From Gammaproteobacteria bacterium Gsub (lineage in GTDB: Bacteria; Pseudomonadota; Gammaproteobacteria; PS1; Pseudothioglobaceae): a stretch of 64,000 nt of DNA. Below are positions 9,035-59,919 of this stretch, piece by piece. The notes below the pieces were generated by a model. It was not told where the DNA came from. It did not search any database and saw only the letters and a program-made list of their open reading frames with translations. Where the stretch lies: positions 1-64,000 of the forward strand of contig JYIN01000008.1 in NCBI GenBank assembly GCA_002007405.1, written 5' to 3'. Each line of letters begins with the position of its first letter. The first letter of the stretch is position 1. The position numbers and the translations under genes are program-made.

Positions 9035-10894
9035 ATGCAAAAAACAAAAACAAAACAAAAGCGGGCAAAGCCTCAAAAAAGGCTAAAAAACCAAAAACTG
9101 CTATTGGATTTTGAGTTTAGAGATTTATTTACTAAAGACTATCGTTGGGCTTTGTTTGCTCTAATCGTTTTACCACTATTGGTTTATTTACAAGTGTGGC
9201 ATTTTAAGTTTGTTTGGGATGATTCAGGGCATTTGTCTAATTCATTTGTAATCAATCCCTCATGGGCGAATCTTAAAAATCTTTTCAACCTGCCTTATTT
9301 CGGGATGTATATTCCTATCAATTATCTGTTTTTAGGCGTGCTTAAAGCCTTTGCCGAGTTATTATCATTGCCATTAAACAGTGTTCTACATCTCACAAAT
9401 GTGGTGGTGCATATTATAAATGGTCTGCTGGTTTTTACCATTCTCAAGCAGTTTGTAATAAATAAGTGGGCAGTGTTAATTGGCACTGGGTTTTTTCTGC
9501 TACACCCGCTTCAAGTCGAGACAGTAGTTTGGGTGAGTGAGCTTCGGAGTTTGTTGGGGTTTGGTTTTTCGATGGCGGCTTTGTATTGGCATATAAAAAA
9601 TCCTGAAAAATTGTCTTATACTTCGTTATTATTTTTTGTTCTGGCAGTTTTGAGCAAGCCCTCAGCAGTCACTTTAGTGTTGTTTGTTTTTCTCATTAAC
9701 TATTTCCATTATAAATTTAACCTTTTAAAAAATATTTGGAAAACCTTACCGTATGCACTAATTGCCTTGATAGCTGTTGTGATTGCCCACTCAGTTCAGG
9801 CTCAATACGACGCTAATATTTCCCAATACACCATCGCCTTTTGGCAACGACCGTTTGCTTGGTTAGATAGTATGGTTTTCTACTTTTATAAAATCCTCTA
9901 TCCTTACCATTTAAGTGCCTCCTATACGCTGTCACCAAAGTTTATTGCTACGCAGTGGTGGTTTTATCCTTTAGCGTTGTTGCCACTTGCTTTAGGCTGG
10001 TTGTTGTGGTTAAAACGCAAAAAACAACCGCTGTTAATATTTGCCATTCTGCTTTTTATCACTGGATTTTTCACCACCTCAGGTTTTGTAGATTTTGCCT
10101 ATCAAAGGTATTCTTTAGTGGCAAATAGGTATTTGTATTTTTCAATGTTTGGGGTGGGATTATTCGTTGCAACTGTTTTTGCTAAAGTTGATAAAAAATA
10201 CTGGCAAGGATTGATTATCGGGGTGCTGGTTGTTTTTGCTACTTTATCAGTATTTAAACAGATTCCGACCTGGAAAAATGAGATTACATTATGGACAAAT
10301 GCTGCCGCTTATGAAGTGGTACCAAATTATGTGTATATTAATCTAGGTCTTGCTTTGTCTCGTCAGGGAAAATATTCTCAGGCAATTACCTCCTTTGATA
10401 GGGTCATTGATTATTACCAAAAACATGCGGTTTCAAAAAATACCACCCACTATGTCAGCAAGGCTTTTTTCAATAAAGGCAATGCCCTATCACAGCAAAA
10501 AAAATACCCTCAAGCAATGATAAGTTTTGATAAAGCAATTGCCAATTATCCAAAAGGTGCAATTCCACAAAGTGCGCTCCCGCATATTAGCAAGGCTTTT
10601 TTTAACAAAGGCGGGATTTTATTCGGACAAAAAAAATATCCTCAGGCAATTGTAAATTTTGATAAAGCAATTGCTTGTTATCCAAATGGTGTGATTCCAA
10701 AAAATGCCATCCAGCATATAAGTGAGGCTTTTTCTAGTAAAGGTGCGGCTTTATTTAATCAGAAAAAACATGACCAGGCTTGGATAGCATTTAACCAAGC
10801 CGTAAAAATCAATCCAAAAAACAAAATGGCACATAATTTGAAGGCGATTACACTGGATTTATTAAAAAATAAGGCAGATAAAACAAAACCCTAA
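9035..10894 (+). CDS. Polytopic membrane protein with C-terminal TPRs
   Basis: 619 residues. A very basic N-terminus (about 1-25), then about 11 transmembrane helices (about 38-425), including a short loop with WDDSGHLSN after the first helix, then at least four TPR-like units (about 435-610). The architecture resembles TMTC/PMT-like GT-C glycosyltransferases fused to TPRs, where the acidic pair in the first loop is catalytic. Assignment to that class is inference. Three central TPR units are near-identical at the DNA level, with a 132-bp period (see repeat). It stands alone between oadB and the biotin ligase gene. Confidence 0.75.
   Translation: MQKTKTKQKRAKPQKRLKNQKLLLDFEFRDLFTKDYRWALFALIVLPLLVYLQVWHFKFVWDDSGHLSNSFVINPSWANLKNLFNLPYFGMYIPINYLFLGVLKAFAELLSLPLNSVLHLTNVVVHIINGLLVFTILKQFVINKWAVLIGTGFFLLHPLQVETVVWVSELRSLLGFGFSMAALYWHIKNPEKLSYTSLLFFVLAVLSKPSAVTLVLFVFLINYFHYKFNLLKNIWKTLPYALIALIAVVIAHSVQAQYDANISQYTIAFWQRPFAWLDSMVFYFYKILYPYHLSASYTLSPKFIATQWWFYPLALLPLALGWLLWLKRKKQPLLIFAILLFITGFFTTSGFVDFAYQRYSLVANRYLYFSMFGVGLFVATVFAKVDKKYWQGLIIGVLVVFATLSVFKQIPTWKNEITLWTNAAAYEVVPNYVYINLGLALSRQGKYSQAITSFDRVIDYYQKHAVSKNTTHYVSKAFFNKGNALSQQKKYPQAMISFDKAIANYPKGAIPQSALPHISKAFFNKGGILFGQKKYPQAIVNFDKAIACYPNGVIPKNAIQHISEAFSSKGAALFNQKKHDQAWIAFNQAVKINPKNKMAHNLKAITLDLLKNKADKTKP
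10461..10856 (+). repeat. 132-bp tandem repeats encoding 44-residue TPR units
   Basis: The landmark AGGCTTTTT followed by AAAGG recurs at 10461, 10593 and 10725, a strict 132-bp period. The units encode SKAFFNKGxxLxxQKKYPQA then FDKAIAxYPxGxIP. A 44-residue period is longer than the canonical 34-residue TPR because of an inserted IPxxAxxH loop. The first two copies are the most similar, the third is drifting. Confidence 0.8.
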
Positions 10895-15826: not shown

Positions 15827-16381
15827 TCAGCGTTCTTGCAAAATGACTTGTTTAATCCAAATCCACACATAATCCGCACCGCTGAGCACGGTTGAGGTTG
15901 CTACCACAATGAAAAACACCTGTAGCCATTGGGTGGATATTGGGTAAATTTGTGCCAAAATTAGGAATAATACCAAGCTAATTTGTAAAACAGTATTAAA
16001 TTTAGATAGGTTTGAAGGGGTTAATAATTCATCTCTTTCGGTATTTGCACCCAAAAAATAACCAACTGTGGCAGCCACAATCATTACATCACGCAAAAAA
16101 ATCAAAACCAACAACCACCATGGCAATAAATCAATCAAAAAAAGGGCAATAAAACTGCCTGTTAATAACAATTTATCCGCCATCGGATCAAGAATTGACC
16201 CTAATCTGCTTTGATAACAAAACCGTTTGGCAATCCAACCGTCTAAGGCATCGGTAATCCCAGCAATAAAAAACAATATAATGGCTAAAGAATAATTATG
16301 ATTTAATAAGGTCATTACTACAGGTACTGTTAAAATAATGCGTAAAATTGAAAGCACATTGGGTAATGAATAAAGTCCCAC
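15827..16381 (-). CDS. pgsA: CDP-alcohol phosphatidyltransferase (PgsA-like)
   Basis: Inner-membrane enzyme making phosphatidylglycerophosphate from CDP-diacylglycerol and glycerol-3-phosphate. The CDP-alcohol signature is present (DGWIAKR, eight residues on G, then DPMADK), with about five membrane helices. The frame stays open to an ATG at 16438, but that ATG lies inside a 40-bp palindromic element, and the extra 19 residues do not look like a PgsA N-terminus. I prefer the GTG at 16381, giving VGLYSLPNVLSILR, close to the usual N-terminus. The visible ribosome-binding signals are weak, so the start remains uncertain. Confidence 0.85.
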   Translation of the reverse strand: MGLYSLPNVLSILRIILTVPVVMTLLNHNYSLAIILFFIAGITDALDGWIAKRFCYQSRLGSILDPMADKLLLTGSFIALFLIDLLPWWLLVLIFLRDVMIVAATVGYFLGANTERDELLTPSNLSKFNTVLQISLVLFLILAQIYPISTQWLQVFFIVVATSTVLSGADYVWIWIKQVILQER

Positions 16382-16425
16382 TTTTGATTTAACTGACAAA
16401 AAATTTAAACGACCAATTATACTTG

Positions 16426-16465
16426 GAGACCTTTGCATAGTTATGAATAATTATGCAAAGGTCTC
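16426..16465. repeat. 40-bp near-perfect palindromic element (copy A)
   Basis: The left arm begins GAGACCTTTGCATA and the right arm ends TATGCAAAGGTCTC. Arms are 19 bp with one G/T mismatch around a 2-bp GA centre. It lies in the divergent promoter region of pgsA and purM. Degraded copies are at 22907-22947 and 46332-46371. The ends resemble terminal inverted repeats of some IS5-type elements, so a MITE-like origin is inferred. In RNA it would form a strong hairpin on either strand. Confidence 0.85.
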
Positions 16466-16479
16466 ATTTAAAAACTACC

Positions 16480-17481
16480 ATGCCATCACTCACTTACCAA
16501 AACTCAGGGGTTGATATTAACAAAGGCAATGCGTTGATTGATTGCATTAAACCGATTGCTAAATCTACTGTTACAAAAGGAGTACTCGGCGGTCTTGGTG
16601 GTTTTGGTGCCATGTTTGAGATTCCCATTAGACAATACAAAAACCCAGTCTTAGTCTCAGCTACAGATGGCGTTGGTACCAAACTTAAAATAGCCCAAAT
16701 GTTAAACAAGCACGACACCATCGGCATTGATTTAGTGGCAATGTGTGTTAATGATTTAATTGTACAAGGGGCAAAACCGCTATTTTTTTTAGATTATTAT
16801 GCCACTGGCAAACTCAGCACTGAAGTTGCCACATCTGTTATCTCTGGCATTGCCGAGGGTTGTCGCCAAGCACGGTGTGCTTTAATCGGTGGTGAAACTG
16901 CAGAGATGCCGGGCATGTATCAAGGCGAAGATTACGATTTGGCGGGCTTTTGTGTTGGCATTGTAGAAAAAAACGCCATCATTAACGGCAACAAAATAAG
17001 CGCTGGCGACCATATTATTGGCTTGCCCTCTTCTGGCGTGCATTCTAACGGCTACTCACTGGTTCGCAAAATACTGCTGCAATCAAACCCAACCCAAGCA
17101 CAGCTAGAGGCACTGATAAAGCCAACCAAAATTTATGTTGAATCTGTTTTATCGTTAATTGAAAAATTCAAAATTCATGGTATCTCGCACATTACTGGTG
17201 GTGGATTATTAGAAAATATTCCTCGCATATTACCCACAAATCTAAGTGCTAAACTTAATAAAAATTCTTGGCAACTGCCTAATATTTTTAAATTCCTACA
17301 AACCAATGGTAATATTAAAATGATGGAGATGTATCGCGTTTTTAACTGTGGTGTTGGCATGGTGGTTATACTCCCAGCCCAGCAAAGTATGGCCGCTATC
17401 AAACACCTCAATAAAAATGGCGAAAACGCTTGGCTCATTGGCGAGATTACCCAAAACAATGGCAAACAAGTCATTATCTAA
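16480..17481 (+). CDS. purM: Phosphoribosylformylglycinamidine cyclo-ligase
   Basis: AIR synthetase, the fifth step of purine synthesis (FGAM + ATP to AIR). About 333 residues from the ATG at 16480, starting [20 protein letters not shown] as in known PurM proteins. An upstream in-frame ATG at 16453 lies in the palindromic element and adds nine unrelated residues. Motifs: [54 protein letters not shown] and [17 protein letters not shown]. It overlaps purN by 23 bases and is divergent from pgsA. Confidence 0.97.
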
Positions 17482-22874: not shown

Positions 22875-22906
22875 TTGGGGTTTTATTTGTCGGGGTTTTA
22901 TTAGTA

Positions 22907-22947
22907 GAAACCCTTGCATAATGTATGAATAATCATCAAAAACCCAT
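22907..22947. repeat. Degraded copy B of the 40-bp palindromic element
   Basis: GAAACCCTTGCATA with a TATGAATAAT centre aligns with copy A at 16426-16465 apart from a one-base insertion and a decayed right arm. About 55 bases further, at 22994-23006, TTGTAAAAAGTCTC reads like another end of the same type. This may therefore be a remnant about 100 bp long rather than a solo palindrome. Confidence 0.55.
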
Positions 22948-23005
22948 CTTCAACCAACTTAGCAAAATCTCCTATTTTACTAATCACATACATTGTAAAA
23001 AGTCT

Positions 23006-23401
23006 CTAGTAATTTTCTACGCAATCAAAATAATCTTTCCATCTGCCAGGTGAAAATTCAGTGCCTAGTGCATCAAGCGGACCTGTATTATATAAAAAAC
23101 CACTTGACAATGCATCTTTAAATCTTTGAATGTTGGCAGCCGATAAACCTAATCTATCTTCACAAGCTTTATGCGCCTCAGCAGTTACTGGTGTGCCAGA
23201 AGTTGTGTGCCCAATAACTTTTTTAGAGGTGTCAGTTAAGGTCATATTTTTTGCATCTTTATCACCAACCACAGCTTGGTCAGCTGCTGGTGATAGTGCA
23301 TCTAACGACTCAACTGGACCTTTATCACGATCATCACCACCTGCTATTACTCCAGTTATTAAAGCAAATATTGCTAAAAAATTTAAAATTTTTTTTGTCA
23401 T
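23006..23401 (-). CDS. Small secreted protein of unknown function
   Basis: 131 residues with a clear signal peptide (about 1-20, KKILNFLAIFALITGVIAG), an acidic Asp/Lys-rich segment, then a region with paired cysteines (Cys82 and a C-terminal CVENY). No domain is recognised. The stop codon (TAG, 23006-23008) falls at the edge of the IS-like remnant, so the C-terminus may be altered or shortened. The gene has a GAGAACA ribosome site and its own promoter region, divergent from cmoB. Probably periplasmic. Confidence 0.65.
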   Translation of the reverse strand: MTKKILNFLAIFALITGVIAGGDDRDKGPVESLDALSPAADQAVVGDKDAKNMTLTDTSKKVIGHTTSGTPVTAEAHKACEDRLGLSAANIQRFKDALSSGFLYNTGPLDALGTEFSPGRWKDYFDCVENY

Positions 23402-31962: not shown

Positions 31963-33930
31963 TCAATTATTACTATCACAAAGGTCATTTATTACACCAC
32001 TATTTGAGTATTCAAACGCCTCAGCATTGCCACAATTAACTGTGCCTGAGACTGATTGATTGACACTACCAGGAGCAACAGAGGATCCTTGTTCTGCTGC
32101 TTCGTAAGTGCTAAAGCTGAAGATTGCAAGATCGCCATTAATATCAGAATCTGCCTCACTAAAAAAGGAACTATTTTGATACATTTCTATATCACCATTG
32201 ACGATAGTGCCATTGTATAGAGATAGATTGCTATTACCAAAAATTTCAAAATTAGCTGGCATTGTGCCACCATTTTCATTTACAAAAGAAGATTGCAGCT
32301 CAATATTAATATTTATATTGCCCCCACTGGGATGAGAAAATTCAACGGCATAAGGAGATAATTGATTTGCCTCGTCTGACACAATCAATAATGAATTTTC
32401 CTCAATGTCAATATCTTCTGTGGCAACACTAATTGCATTTTCACTACGAGGAATTAATAACATATTGGATGATGCACAAACCTCAATCTCACTAAATGAT
32501 GTATCAATGGCAACTTGTTGAGCAATAAAAGAAGAATTAAAACACACTTCTAAATCACCAGTGATTTGATTACCGGTGCCATCTTGTTCAAAACGCGTTT
32601 GTTCAAATGTAGATTTCACTATGCTTAATGAGTTAATGATGTTATCAGCCCCTCTGAGCGAGATAGCAACCCCATTTATCGCCGCCAAGCCATAATCATC
32701 ATTGGCATTTGCTGCAGCATTAAGGGTATTGCCTGATTTTAAAACAACACTGGAATTAACCGAAGCAAAAATACCCGAACCACAAAATGGATTATTACAA
32801 GTCCCATTGCCACTACCATCAATACCAACAGTACCATCAGTATTAATCGTGATATCCGATAAAATTGCCACCGAATTATTAAACAGACGCATACCATAAT
32901 TATGTCCATTCAAATCAACATTAATTAACCGTACCCTACTGTTATTGCCTATTCTCATTGCATGAAAATTTAAACCAGCATTGATCGTTAAATCTTTCAA
33001 GGTAAAACGCCTATCCCGAGTCTCAAAGGCTCCAGACATACCATTGCCGCCAGTATTAGGCTGTCTTTGTACTAAACCTACTGGATTGATTGAGGTATAT
33101 TGATAATTCTCATTTTCTGCACTACTAAAACCAGTAGCGTTACCTTGAATAATGTTAGTATTTTTATTGCCAGACCCACCTGAACCTTGGATGGTAATGC
33201 CATCACGGCGCAAATAAATATCATCAATACAAGTACCAGTTATTTCAATGACCACCTTGCCATGTAAAGGTGAGGTTTCAATCGCTGCTTGTAAAGATTC
33301 TCCACTACTACAATCAACGCTAATAATTGGATTATCTGCGCTACTAACAGTAACTGCGGCAGTGTTAGAGCCGCCAATAGATACTTGATTTACGAAGTTA
33401 GTTATTGCTGTTGCTGATGCTCGTAAATTATCAATTGCATCGGCATTGGTCGCTATATTGCTTGTATTGGTTTGAATATCATCAACTGTTGCTGTTGCTG
33501 ATGCTCGTAAATTATCAATTGCATCGGCATTGGTCGTTATATTGCTTGTATTGGTTTGAATATCATCAACTGTTGCTGTTACTGAGGTTTGTAAGGTGTT
33601 AATTGCTGTTGTATTGTTTGTAACATTACCTGTATTGGTTTGAATATCATCAACTGTTGCTGTTGCTGATGCTCGTAAATTAACAATTGCATCGGCATTG
33701 GTCGTTATATTACCTGTGTTGACACTAATGCTATTGGTATTAGTAGCAATCCGGCTATCATTATCATCCACCGCATTTTTTACATTTGTAAAATTTGCAT
33801 TCACATCATCGGCCACCGCTGGGGTGTTTGCCACAAAAGTGTTTAGAGTGGTTACACTACCCGCCCAAACCATACCACTTATAAATAGAATAAACGCCAG
33901 TATGGTAGTGGCTTTAGTTAACTGTTTCAT
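31963..33930 (-). CDS. Exported repeat protein: coiled-coil stalk plus beta-helix
   Basis: 655 residues. Signal peptide 1-23 (ending VWAG). A helical stalk of 28-residue repeats (about 60-180; TATVDDIQTNT, then NADAIDNLRASA) fits four heptads each and recalls trimeric autotransporter or tail-fibre stalks. Residues about 210-640 are Ser/Asn/Gly-rich with a pectate-lyase-like right-handed beta-helix pattern (repeated short strands such as RVRLINVDLNG, AILSDITINT, SIVKSTFEQT). There is no C-terminal membrane anchor. Probably secreted or surface-located, with adhesion or glycan binding inferred only. It lies directly downstream of the large lipoprotein gene on the same strand. Confidence 0.75.
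   Translation of the reverse strand: MKQLTKATTILAFILFISGMVWAGSVTTLNTFVANTPAVADDVNANFTNVKNAVDDNDSRIATNTNSISVNTGNITTNADAIVNLRASATATVDDIQTNTGNVTNNTTAINTLQTSVTATVDDIQTNTSNITTNADAIDNLRASATATVDDIQTNTSNIATNADAIDNLRASATAITNFVNQVSIGGSNTAAVTVSSADNPIISVDCSSGESLQAAIETSPLHGKVVIEITGTCIDDIYLRRDGITIQGSGGSGNKNTNIIQGNATGFSSAENENYQYTSINPVGLVQRQPNTGGNGMSGAFETRDRRFTLKDLTINAGLNFHAMRIGNNSRVRLINVDLNGHNYGMRLFNNSVAILSDITINTDGTVGIDGSGNGTCNNPFCGSGIFASVNSSVVLKSGNTLNAAANANDDYGLAAINGVAISLRGADNIINSLSIVKSTFEQTRFEQDGTGNQITGDLEVCFNSSFIAQQVAIDTSFSEIEVCASSNMLLIPRSENAISVATEDIDIEENSLLIVSDEANQLSPYAVEFSHPSGGNININIELQSSFVNENGGTMPANFEIFGNSNLSLYNGTIVNGDIEMYQNSSFFSEADSDINGDLAIFSFSTYEAAEQGSSVAPGSVNQSVSGTVNCGNAEAFEYSNSGVINDLCDSNN
33405..33740 (-). 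repeat. 84-bp tandem repeats coding a coiled-coil stalk
   Basis: The landmark TGCTCGTAAATTA (or TAACA) recurs at 33418, 33502 and 33670, and a diverged copy sits at about 33586, giving four units of exactly 84 bp (28 codons). Units 33418 and 33502 are near-identical. Eighty-four bases equals four heptads, so expansion or contraction keeps the coiled-coil register. Confidence 0.85.
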
Positions 33931-46225: not shown

Positions 46226-46331
46226 TACAATAATAAATCAAGAAAAAACTACAATACTGATGCTGTTTCTACCAATAAAAATAATCTTTAAAAGGCTATA
46301 ATATTTAAAAATGTAGGCTCTAAATTTAACT

Positions 46332-46371
46332 AAGATCTTTGCATAATTATAAATAATCACCCAAAAGTCTC
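46332..46371. repeat. Degraded copy C of the 40-bp palindromic element
   Basis: Same 40-base length as copy A at 16426-16465, and by hand alignment 32 of 40 positions agree. The left arm (ATCTTTGCATAATTAT) is well kept, while the right arm has lost pairing in the middle (CACCC). Confidence 0.7.
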
Positions 46372-46418
46372 TAACCGATGCAAAAATAACCAATACAAAA
46401 AATCTTACCTAAAAAAAT

Positions 46419-47642
46419 ATGCCCAATTCAGCCATTAAACTAAGACGCAATATTACTTATCCGTTGCTCACTTTGTATGGATTAGGGACTATTCTGGGGG
46501 CAGGTATTTATGTATTGATTGGCAAAATTGTAGCAAATGCAGGAATTTATGCCCCAGTTGCTTTTTTATTAGCCGCTATTATTGCTGGATTTAATAGTTA
46601 TTCTTATGCTGCTCTTAGTTCTCGTTATCCTCAAAGCGGAGGCGAGGTTAATTATGTTAATGCCGCTTTTGATATAAGATGGCTATCAACTATCGTTGGA
46701 ATATTGCTTATCTTAACGGGCATTGTCAGTGCAGCAACCTTGGCAAATGGTTTTGTTGGCTATCTTAATGTTTTTATACTTTTACCTGAGATTTTAGTGA
46801 TTAGTTTATTGGTTATTATTATGACATTGATTGCCGTATGGGGGGTTAAGCAATCTTTAATTATTGCTGGTCTAATCACCCTAGTTGAGATAGGCGGTTT
46901 GTTATGGGTGGTGATTAACAATATTGGTGCGTTGTCAAATCTAGGCGAATATTTACCCAAACTCAACTATTTGTTGGTGGATATGACGCCTTGGTTTGGG
47001 ATATTCGCTGGGTCATTTTTGGCGTTTTATGCTTTTATTGGTTTTGAAGATATGGTTAATATGTCAGAGGAAACCATACAAGTTAAAAAAACTATGCCCA
47101 AAGCGGTTATCAGTGCTTTAATTATCAGTTCTATCATCTATATAATAATTGCAATAATTGCCATTTTAGCAGTGCCCATCTCCCAATTAGCCAATAGTTT
47201 AGCACCGATAGCACAGATTATGAAAAGTCATAGTCAACAGGCTTATTTTATTATTAGTTTAGTGAGTCTGATAGCAATTATCAACGGCATACTGGTGCAA
47301 ATTATTATGGGTTCAAGAGTGTTGTATGGAATGAGTAGTAGTCAGTTAATATCACCACATTTAAGGCGGCTACATCCAAATTTTCAAACCCCAATTATTG
47401 CCACCCTATTCGTTGCTTTAATGGTATGGATTAGTGCGATTAGTTTGCCCTTGGTTACCTTAGCACAATTAACCAGTTTTATCGTCATTATTATTTTTTT
47501 ATTGGTTAATATTGCCTTAGTCGCCATTTTAAAAAAAGAAGCCTCACTACCGACAGACGCCATGTTTATCCGACCCTGGATAGTATGGCTTACAATTTTA
47601 TTAAATATTAGTTTTTTACTGACCAAACTGTTTATCTTCTAA
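46419..47642 (+). CDS. Amino-acid permease (APC superfamily)
   Basis: 407 residues with about 11-12 transmembrane helices. The first helix motif YGLGTILGAGIYVLIGKI has the substrate-binding G-x-G-I of APC transporters. FYAFIGFEDMVNMSEETI in helix 6 and the following cytoplasmic loop are also typical. Substrate cannot be read from sequence; a cation or polyamine/amino-acid antiport or import role is possible. It is flanked by IS relics upstream and hisA downstream. Confidence 0.88.
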   Translation: MPNSAIKLRRNITYPLLTLYGLGTILGAGIYVLIGKIVANAGIYAPVAFLLAAIIAGFNSYSYAALSSRYPQSGGEVNYVNAAFDIRWLSTIVGILLILTGIVSAATLANGFVGYLNVFILLPEILVISLLVIIMTLIAVWGVKQSLIIAGLITLVEIGGLLWVVINNIGALSNLGEYLPKLNYLLVDMTPWFGIFAGSFLAFYAFIGFEDMVNMSEETIQVKKTMPKAVISALIISSIIYIIIAIIAILAVPISQLANSLAPIAQIMKSHSQQAYFIISLVSLIAIINGILVQIIMGSRVLYGMSSSQLISPHLRRLHPNFQTPIIATLFVALMVWISAISLPLVTLAQLTSFIVIIIFLLVNIALVAILKKEASLPTDAMFIRPWIVWLTILLNISFLLTKLFIF

Positions 47643-48792: not shown

Positions 48793-49644
48793 ATGAACAA
48801 AAAGCAACTTATAACGATTTTACCTTTTCTACAAAGACTCAAAAAAATTTTTCACCCGCCAATACATTCTAAAGATGCGCTTTTGCAGGTTCTAAAAGAA
48901 TCTGAAGAAAGCCATATTATTGACTCACACTCGCGCTTGATTATTGAAGGCACAATGCAGCTTGAAAAATTGGAAGTGCGTGATGTTATGGTGCCAAAAT
49001 CAAAAATGGTAATGATTGAACACAATACGCAAGTCAAAGCATTGCTTGATATTATGATTCATTCATCGCATTCTAGATTTCCAGTTATCAATACAGATAG
49101 TAATAGGATACTGGGCATTATTTTGGCAAAAGATTTGCTGGGTTATCTTGCCAATAACAATAAAAAGATCGAATTTAATTATCGGGAATACTTGCGTAAT
49201 GCAATTTTGGTGCCTGAAAGCAAAACCCTAGGCGCCCTGCTGAGGGATTTTCAAAGTAAAAAATCACATATGGCAATTGTAATTGATGAGTATGGCGAAA
49301 TTGCTGGTTTGATAACACTTGAGGATGTGCTGGAGCAAATTGTGGGTGAGATTGAAGATGAACATGATTTTGAACAAGACAGCATTATTGATTTTGGTGA
49401 TGGGCGTTATTTACTCAAAGCCAATACCCCATTAGAAGAATTTAATGATTTTTTTAAGGTTAAGTTAGCTATTGATGATGTTGATACCGTAGGAGGTTTT
49501 GTAGTTGCAGGCTTTACCTATCTACCAAAGCAAATGAGTAATATTGATTTGCAAGGTTTTAATTTCAAAATTTTAAAAACCGATTCTCGGCGCTTGCATT
49601 TGTTAGAGGTAAAAAAAATTGGGACTAGCACCAAAAACACTTAA
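48793..49644 (+). CDS. corC: CorC/YbeX family CBS-domain protein
   Basis: 283 residues. N-terminal helical segment, then a CBS pair (about 60-185; VRDVMVPKSKMVMIEHNTQ, then HMAIVIDEYGEIAGLITLED) and a C-terminal CorC_HlyC domain (about 200-280). It is connected with Mg2+/Co2+ efflux and ribosome/envelope functions in E. coli. The last about 27 codons plus 20 bases after the stop are duplicated at 56606-56709 before pmbA, showing that corC and pmbA were once adjacent. Confidence 0.93.
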   Translation: MNKKQLITILPFLQRLKKIFHPPIHSKDALLQVLKESEESHIIDSHSRLIIEGTMQLEKLEVRDVMVPKSKMVMIEHNTQVKALLDIMIHSSHSRFPVINTDSNRILGIILAKDLLGYLANNNKKIEFNYREYLRNAILVPESKTLGALLRDFQSKKSHMAIVIDEYGEIAGLITLEDVLEQIVGEIEDEHDFEQDSIIDFGDGRYLLKANTPLEEFNDFFKVKLAIDDVDTVGGFVVAGFTYLPKQMSNIDLQGFNFKILKTDSRRLHLLEVKKIGTSTKNT

Positions 49645-49667
49645 TCAATGTCATCTTTAGAACAGGT
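49563..49667 (+). repeat. Left copy of the corC-pmbA junction repeat
   Basis: 105 bases covering the 3' end of corC, its stop, the short spacer and the first codons of pmbA (MSSLEQV). The right copy is 56606-56709, with four to six differences and one A deleted in an A-run. The identity breaks off sharply after AACAGGT in both. These repeats bound the 7-kb insertion. Confidence 0.95.
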
Positions 49668-56605: not shown

Positions 56606-56709
56606 TTTCAAAATTTTAAAAACTGATTCTCGGCGCTTGCATTTGTTAGGGGTAAAAAAATTGATACTAGCACCAAAAACACTTAATCAATGTCATCTTT
56701 AGAACAGGT
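56606..56709 (+). repeat. Right copy of the corC-pmbA junction repeat
   Basis: 104 bases matching 49563-49667. Here the copy retains only the last codons of corC out of context, and its downstream part is the genuine start of pmbA. Differences between copies (for example C to T, A to G, and GG to AT) show the duplication is not recent. Confidence 0.95.
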
Positions 56710-59704: not shown

Positions 59705-59742
59705 GATTTAAGCATTATAGCCAACAATTAGGATTAAAAAAA

Positions 59743-59919
59743 GAATCCATTGTGCCGTGCCTGAGGAACCTGAACCATAAGGCTCAAGGTGGAAGTTTGA
59801 AGCCTACCGCAGGCTTCCCAGCCGCACTGGGCTTGCTCAATAGTAGTCTATCGCATCTCCTATTTTATTTATTTATCGGCTCAGGAACATAATCAACCAC
59901 AAGCACAACAGACAGTTAT
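59743..59919 (-). ncRNA. ssrS: 6S RNA
   Basis: Reverse strand, about 177 nt. It contains CCTGAGCCGATA (complement of 59874-59885), the same string as near the 5' end of E. coli 6S RNA. The 3' half CCACCTTGAGCC, GGTTCAGG and GGCACGGCAC matches the known 3' half (CACCUUGAACC, GGUUCAAGG, GCGGCGGCA). A closing stem TTGTGC/GCACAA and a 3' T-run follow. Directly upstream of fau as in enterobacteria. 6S RNA binds sigma70 RNA polymerase. Ends are estimated. Confidence 0.9.

Follow-up and report, generated by a model that had tools for sequence, protein, structure and literature searches.

The window analysed here is the first 64,000 nucleotides of contig JYIN01000008.1 of Gammaproteobacteria bacterium Gsub. 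Between its divergently oriented purM and pgsA-like genes lies a 40-bp palindrome, which we call copy A (Table 1). Its position and its 19-bp arms with a single mismatch were reproduced exactly as first described; a palindrome with arms of this length and at most one mismatch is expected by chance about 0.0004 times per 64 kb. As the sole mismatch is G-T, the RNA hairpin on the + strand is unbroken, with a folding energy of -25.0 kcal/mol. An ATG within copy A is the mechanical ORF start for the pgsA-like gene. The preliminary description had also named two diverged copies of the same size and centre. Copy C is a real 40-bp relative; copy B belongs to the family, but as a 100-bp element.

Table 1. 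Coordinates of the features discussed, in window positions
Feature	Position	Strand	Remark
Copy A, 40-bp MITE, probably internally deleted	16426..16465	+	hairpin unbroken on + strand, one G-U pair
Left target-site duplication, copy A	16421..16425	.	ACTTG, from ACTTA; basis: same-genus empty site ATTATACTTAAAAACTA
Right target-site duplication, copy A	16466..16470	.	ATTTA, from ACTTA
purM (AIR synthase)	16480..17481	+	copy A in spacer just upstream
pgsA-like CDP-alcohol phosphatidyltransferase, divergent neighbour	15827..16405	-	translated range; true start uncertain
Copy B, full-length 100-bp MITE, right end decayed	22907..23006	+	
Left target-site duplication, copy B	22902..22906	.	TAGTA
Right target-site duplication, copy B	23007..23011	.	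TAGTA; exact repeat of left
Copy C, diverged 40-bp MITE	46332..46371	+	upstream of amino-acid permease gene (46419-47642)
Left flank repeat, copy C	46327..46331	.	TAACT
Right flank repeat, copy C	46372..46376	.	TAACC, one mismatch to left
6S RNA gene	59740..59917	-	Rfam 15 match

Within the window, matches to the arm with up to three mismatches occur at the chance level (15, with 15.2 expected), and a genome-wide search was therefore needed. Across the 1.37-Mb genome the arm GAGACCTTTGCATA occurs 9 times, compared with 0 for its reversed control, and the 11-bp core ACCTTTGCATA, allowing one mismatch, 75 times compared with 7 for the control. The family is dispersed, with at least 37 copies in this genome: 35 compiled by hand, some of them half-elements, and two further palindromes (C2:102821 and C11:87858). 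Reading the loci separated a long class of ~101 bp (variants of 73-167 bp) from a short class of 30-40 bp palindromes, the terminal inverted repeats of the family being GAGACCTTTGCATAA. Nearly all copies are intergenic, and six of the 35 listed have a tRNA or tmRNA gene no more than about 75 bp away (C3:70198, C4:43401, C7:139074, C9:1300, C10:57113 and C11:112752).

The window holds other repeats as well. A segment of ~105 bp is duplicated 7 kb apart at 96% identity (49563-49667 and 56606-56709), around the starts of ORFs 49648 and 56690, and tandem repeats within long ORFs comprise four copies of an 84-nt unit (33321-33721) and three of a 132-nt unit (10364-10759).

Target duplications and the parent insertion sequence

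The suggestion that these are MITE-like units with IS-like ends is borne out. The elements are short, numerous and mostly intergenic, have terminal inverted repeats, a fixed 5-bp duplication and no coding capacity, and in relatives have their ends in common with an autonomous element. Scanning 80 of 118 fetched public loci yielded 126 elements from relatives, of which 86 are flanked by exact 5-bp duplications, compared with 2.25 expected from shuffled flanks. In the window genome 27 copies have both ends; exact duplications flank 5 of them (0.29 expected), and 10 match at four or more of the five flank positions (2.0 expected). The low share of intact duplications is as expected of old insertions.

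The flanks of copy A itself agree at only three of five positions, and the duplication becomes visible only with the empty site ATTATACTTAAAAACTA in G001, a genome of the same genus. At this site the window reads ATTATACTTG-[40 bp]-ATTTAAAAACTA, so that ACTTA, the duplicated target, stands on both sides, each copy altered since at one position. Thirty purM loci were fetched and 29 classified, the one in G009, at a contig end, being left out; in every one of the 29 a divergent pgsA-like gene stands upstream, and the terminal-repeat motif is absent from the other 28 classified purM spacers, occurring only in the window genome. A search for a second empty site, at copy C, with the N-terminus of the permease as query gave no match in five genomes.

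A conserved motif, TTAATTATACGG, occurs with at most two mismatches in 27 of the 29 purM spacers, G001 and the window having the shorter ATTATACTT. The motif is -10-like and may be part of a promoter. Since the insertion sits between it and the purM start codon, the purM mRNA would probably carry the hairpin of copy A close to its 5' end. The proposal that copy A is a transcription-stop hairpin found no support: terminator-like sites (a hairpin followed by a T run) number 0 in 16300-16560, and the copy is placed upstream of purM in a spacer between two divergent genes. Nor is a protein-binding palindrome required, since transposon ends, target duplications and the empty site account for the palindrome.

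In two related genomes, G057 and G022, the ends of the MITE bound an IS of 1.22-1.27 kb. Its transposase of 331-336 aa combines DUF772 with DDE_Tnp_1 and scores 245 bits against the IS5-family model NCBIfam NF033581 (cut-off 140), and exact 5-bp duplications flank four of the eight distinct IS copies examined there. The duplications point to a DDE enzyme. A full IS with the same ends, which the preliminary description had proposed to look for, thus exists in relatives and was not found in the window genome. Matches to the transposase occur in 20 of 95 genomes, some distant, whereas the window genome gave no match to it and none to PF01609, for which a control search was positive in 9/14. Because no such transposase was found, the copies in the window genome look stranded, although the assembly consists of 14 contigs and the IS could sit in a gap. 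Identity between MITE and IS is limited to the first ~14-17 end bases, so that their kinship is seen at the ends alone and a transposase other than this IS5-type one is a possible mover. Two other candidate parents were rejected. A DUF4372 (PF14294) transposase, hinted at by a left-end peptide, matches 4 of 95 genomes, none in the window's family, and the IS of G036, with a transposase 34% identical, lacks these ends in the two copies compared.

The 101-bp element itself matches 29 of the 95 genomes, all of them among the 60 from the window's own family, with no match in the 35 genomes from other families of the class. Among the matches listed, the ends are carried by Bathymodiolus thiotrophic gill symbionts, by Ca. 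Thiodubiliella endoseptemdiera and by gammaproteobacterial MAGs; Thiodubiliella belongs to the Pseudothioglobaceae in the NCBI taxonomy. Exactly 161 bp is the length of 86 of the 126 elements from relatives, and 6 of 132 lie within an ORF by a simple ORF call. The family is strongly multiplied in two related genomes: an 18-bp end with at most one mismatch occurs 378 times in G036 and 270 times in G015. In G057, two loci (L125, 875-1245; L127, 583-953) carry a ~370-bp repeat, 97% identical, which starts with the end GAGACCTTTGCATAAATA and has a different interior.

We conclude, with a probability of roughly 0.88, that a MITE mobilised in trans by an IS5-family DDE transposase left the palindromes behind as relics, many of them later shrunk by internal deletion. 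In the mechanism we propose, the transposase would recognise the GAGACCTTTGCATAA ends and duplicate 5 bp of target, and after insertion many copies would lose their middle by deletion between repeats in the inverted-repeat sequence.

Short palindromes and internal deletion

Deletions between direct repeats were enumerated in the 101-bp sequence, the longest repeats giving predicted product sizes of 30 bp (CATAATTATG, a 10-bp repeat), 50 bp (TAATCAT, 7 bp), 39 bp (TTTGC, 5 bp) and 40 bp (ATAAT, 5 bp). The direct repeats are present because the ends are palindromic, and the element thus holds the means of its own collapse. The short classes found are of 30-33 and 40 bp in the window genome and, one each, of 50-51 bp in relatives. 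Copy A is one change off the predicted 40-bp product and would be a remnant of the ATAAT deletion. Copy C and four others are 4-8 changes off this product; copies C, C4_62174 and C12_32972 differ from the nearest predicted 40-bp product by 7-8 changes, and short copies so far from it may be older or have arisen at other junctions. From these sizes, we infer that the short forms arose by deletion in place between direct repeats.

A different origin, in which the 30-40 bp palindromes are minimal mobile units spreading at their own size in the manner of REP sequences, is improbable, although it has points in its favour. Short palindromes are common in the window genome, with 10 sites of the 30-bp class and 6 of the 40-bp class, and rare in relatives, where the 30-bp class is found once or twice per genome in 10 of 59 other genomes; and exact 5-bp repeats flank the short copies C8_43886, C9_24635, C10_87435 and C1_67840. 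Such flank repeats fit both views, since the duplication made at the first insertion would survive internal deletion. Against independent spread, the sizes are those of deletion products of the 101-bp form, and in a 30-bp unit the two transposase sites would have about 15 bp apiece and nothing between them.

Changes that preserve symmetry are not in clear excess in the short forms: 7 compared with 4.4 expected among 17 copies of the 30-bp class (p about 0.1), and 1 compared with 2.3 among 7 copies of the 40-bp class. Selection for palindromy in the short forms was rejected on this basis. In three relatives (G002, G048 and G038; loci L310, L311 and L312, from 1499) a short palindrome stands at apparently the same intergenic site, and the G002 and G048 copies differ from that of G038 by mirror-image differences on both arms.

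These symmetric differences between apparent orthologues are one reason to consider a role in the host, with the palindromes retained as operators, terminators or mRNA-stabilising hairpins; the almost exclusively intergenic location of the copies, and the six near tRNA or tmRNA genes, are another. We nevertheless regard host function as very improbable for the family, given the missing terminator-like site at copy A, its absence from the other classified purM spacers, the want of excess symmetric changes in the short forms and the lack of sense bias in the long elements (counts below). Individual copies may have been adopted by the host.

Pairing on one strand of the longer elements

Elements of 90-215 bp were oriented by a sequence motif, and not by folding, to read ...GGATGATTAGCAAAAT.... 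For 136 of the 142 distinct sequences, the strand so chosen gives a more stable fold than the complement (51/52 in one set, of which a few are probably chance end pairings, and 85/90 in the other), with values such as -72.2 compared with -48.7, and -96.7 compared with -51.3. The difference arises because mismatched pairs are G-U on the oriented strand and A-C on the complement.

Covariation was followed in 17 divergent 160-class elements, 15 picked from 94 for diversity and two (L099 and L095) added by hand. Their consensus hairpin has 63 pairs, with 95.8% of cells paired. Both-sided changes occur at 25 pairs, compared with a shuffled value of 11.9 (none of 500 shuffles reached 25) and 5-8 when the pairing is slid. 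By parsimony on a FastTree tree of these elements, 58 changes of Watson-Crick pairs led to G-U and 18 to A-C (p 5e-6), returns numbered 38 from G-U and 2 from A-C, and there were 21 double Watson-Crick replacements. Correction of the palindrome at the DNA level would yield compensations only, and is therefore inadequate to explain why G-U is preferred to A-C on one strand.

The bias differs with how widely the changes counted are shared. Among 67 public 160-class copies, one-sided changes comprise 209 G-U and 31 A-C, figures inflated by shared ancestry, and variants found in at least four copies comprise 13 G-U types and no A-C type. Copy-specific changes in the same 67, at 30 G-U and 20 A-C (p 0.2), have no clear bias. 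For the 101-bp class, one-sided changes are 45 G-U and 19 A-C in 11 copies from relatives, and 8 and 9, respectively, in the small sample of five copies from the window genome.

After 25 edge cases and 6 elements inside ORFs were dropped from 132, 30 were sense to genes, 42 antisense and 29 between opposed genes; relative to local GC skew, orientation was 43 and 48. A function in host mRNA as the source of the strand asymmetry was rejected on the first count, and a mutation bias of the replication strands on the second. With shared variants biased, copy-specific ones not clearly so, and orientation random, pairing seems to matter for multiplication and not for the adjacent host gene. As judged from these substitution patterns, selection in the multiplying lineage seems to act on a single-stranded hairpin, probably of RNA; Rfam 15 gave only sub-threshold matches at six element loci and, in the window, only the 6S RNA and a tRNA, both outside the element.

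We therefore offer, tentatively and at a little short of even odds, the reading that this is a gene-less bacterial DNA transposon whose multiplication needs a hairpin on one strand, probably of an element RNA. It would pass through G-U intermediates and double compensations while multiplying, and drift freely after insertion or after loss of the parent IS. In relatives where multiplication has taken place, the 100-190 bp forms appear to have been selected for folding of one particular strand into a hairpin, most likely as RNA, which is a separate claim and less certain than that of transposition and deletion.

It is quite possible, if on balance doubtful, that the one-strand signal instead reflects a single-stranded DNA hairpin in transposition or replication, or a strand-biased mutation process. 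G-T is the best tolerated mismatch in DNA too, it is as DNA that the element moves, and strand symmetry is also lacking among changes at unpaired positions. An outside mutation bias is at odds with the random orientation of the elements to GC skew and to genes, and the 21 double replacements favour selection on pairing; between the two kinds of single strand, RNA is our preferred reading.

That a small protein encoded on the complement strand explains the asymmetry is hardly likely at all. In 59 of 94 160-class copies one complement frame runs through the element without a stop, compared with 0-1 for the other five frames, but these 59 share a common ancestry and are not independent. Shared substitutions in the open frame (14 synonymous, 39 nonsynonymous and 1 stop) match the unconstrained expectation of 0.25/0.70/0.05, with no third-position excess, and a protein-coding interior was rejected for this want of codon-level constraint. 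At two loci of relatives (L097 from 1501 in G053, and L100 in G038) a left-end fragment stands in frame directly before argB, and in these two genomes the ATG of the element could serve as the start of the argB protein (MNNHQNT-MSNNTHN...).

Relation to known elements

The palindromes first reported are ordinary in kind, being worn copies of a MITE. MITEs are mostly regarded as DNA passengers that play no active part and whose ends define them. Strand-specific pairing that is strong in spreading variants and weak in copy-specific changes would, if true, give the interior a role in the life cycle of the element. The deletion series, in turn, offers a simple origin for short extragenic palindromes, as wear products of palindromic elements that collapse through their own repeats. 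In the parts consulted of the literature, including reviews (PMC10969869, PMC2229807) and PMC9769881, we met no description of this family or of a strand-specific pairing signal, and the words 'compensatory' and 'hairpin' do not occur in the text seen of PMC2229807.

The closest likeness at the ends is to the IS5 family of the NF033581 type, as in the IS of G057 and G022: the MITE has the same terminal repeat and 5-bp duplication, but lacks a transposase gene and has only the ends in common. The Correia/NEMIS, ERIC, RUP and YPAL elements, as far as described in the text seen of PMC2229807, are intergenic MITEs of 100-200 bp with terminal inverted repeats and target duplications, whose transcripts are predicted to form long stem-loops and some of which have open frames. 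The present family resembles them in size, intergenic sites, terminal repeats, target duplications and stem-loop folding. It differs in its GAGACC... ends and 5-bp duplication, in its nested series of 30, 40, 50, 101, 161 and 191 bp, and in the strand-specific G-U covariation tested here, which is weak or absent among copy-specific changes. The IS982-derived MITE of Cardinium, according to the portion seen of PMC9769881, is likewise a symbiont MITE specific to its lineage, and intact copies of the parental IS probably maintain it; there the IS family is a different one, whereas the window genome is without a detected parent IS. Finally, REP sequences and REPINs are, in the passages seen (PMC3116915, PMC3733652), many-copy extragenic palindromes of 20-40 bp, which the short forms resemble in size, location and number; the palindromes described here differ from them in having transposon ends and flank duplications and in matching the deletion products of a longer element.
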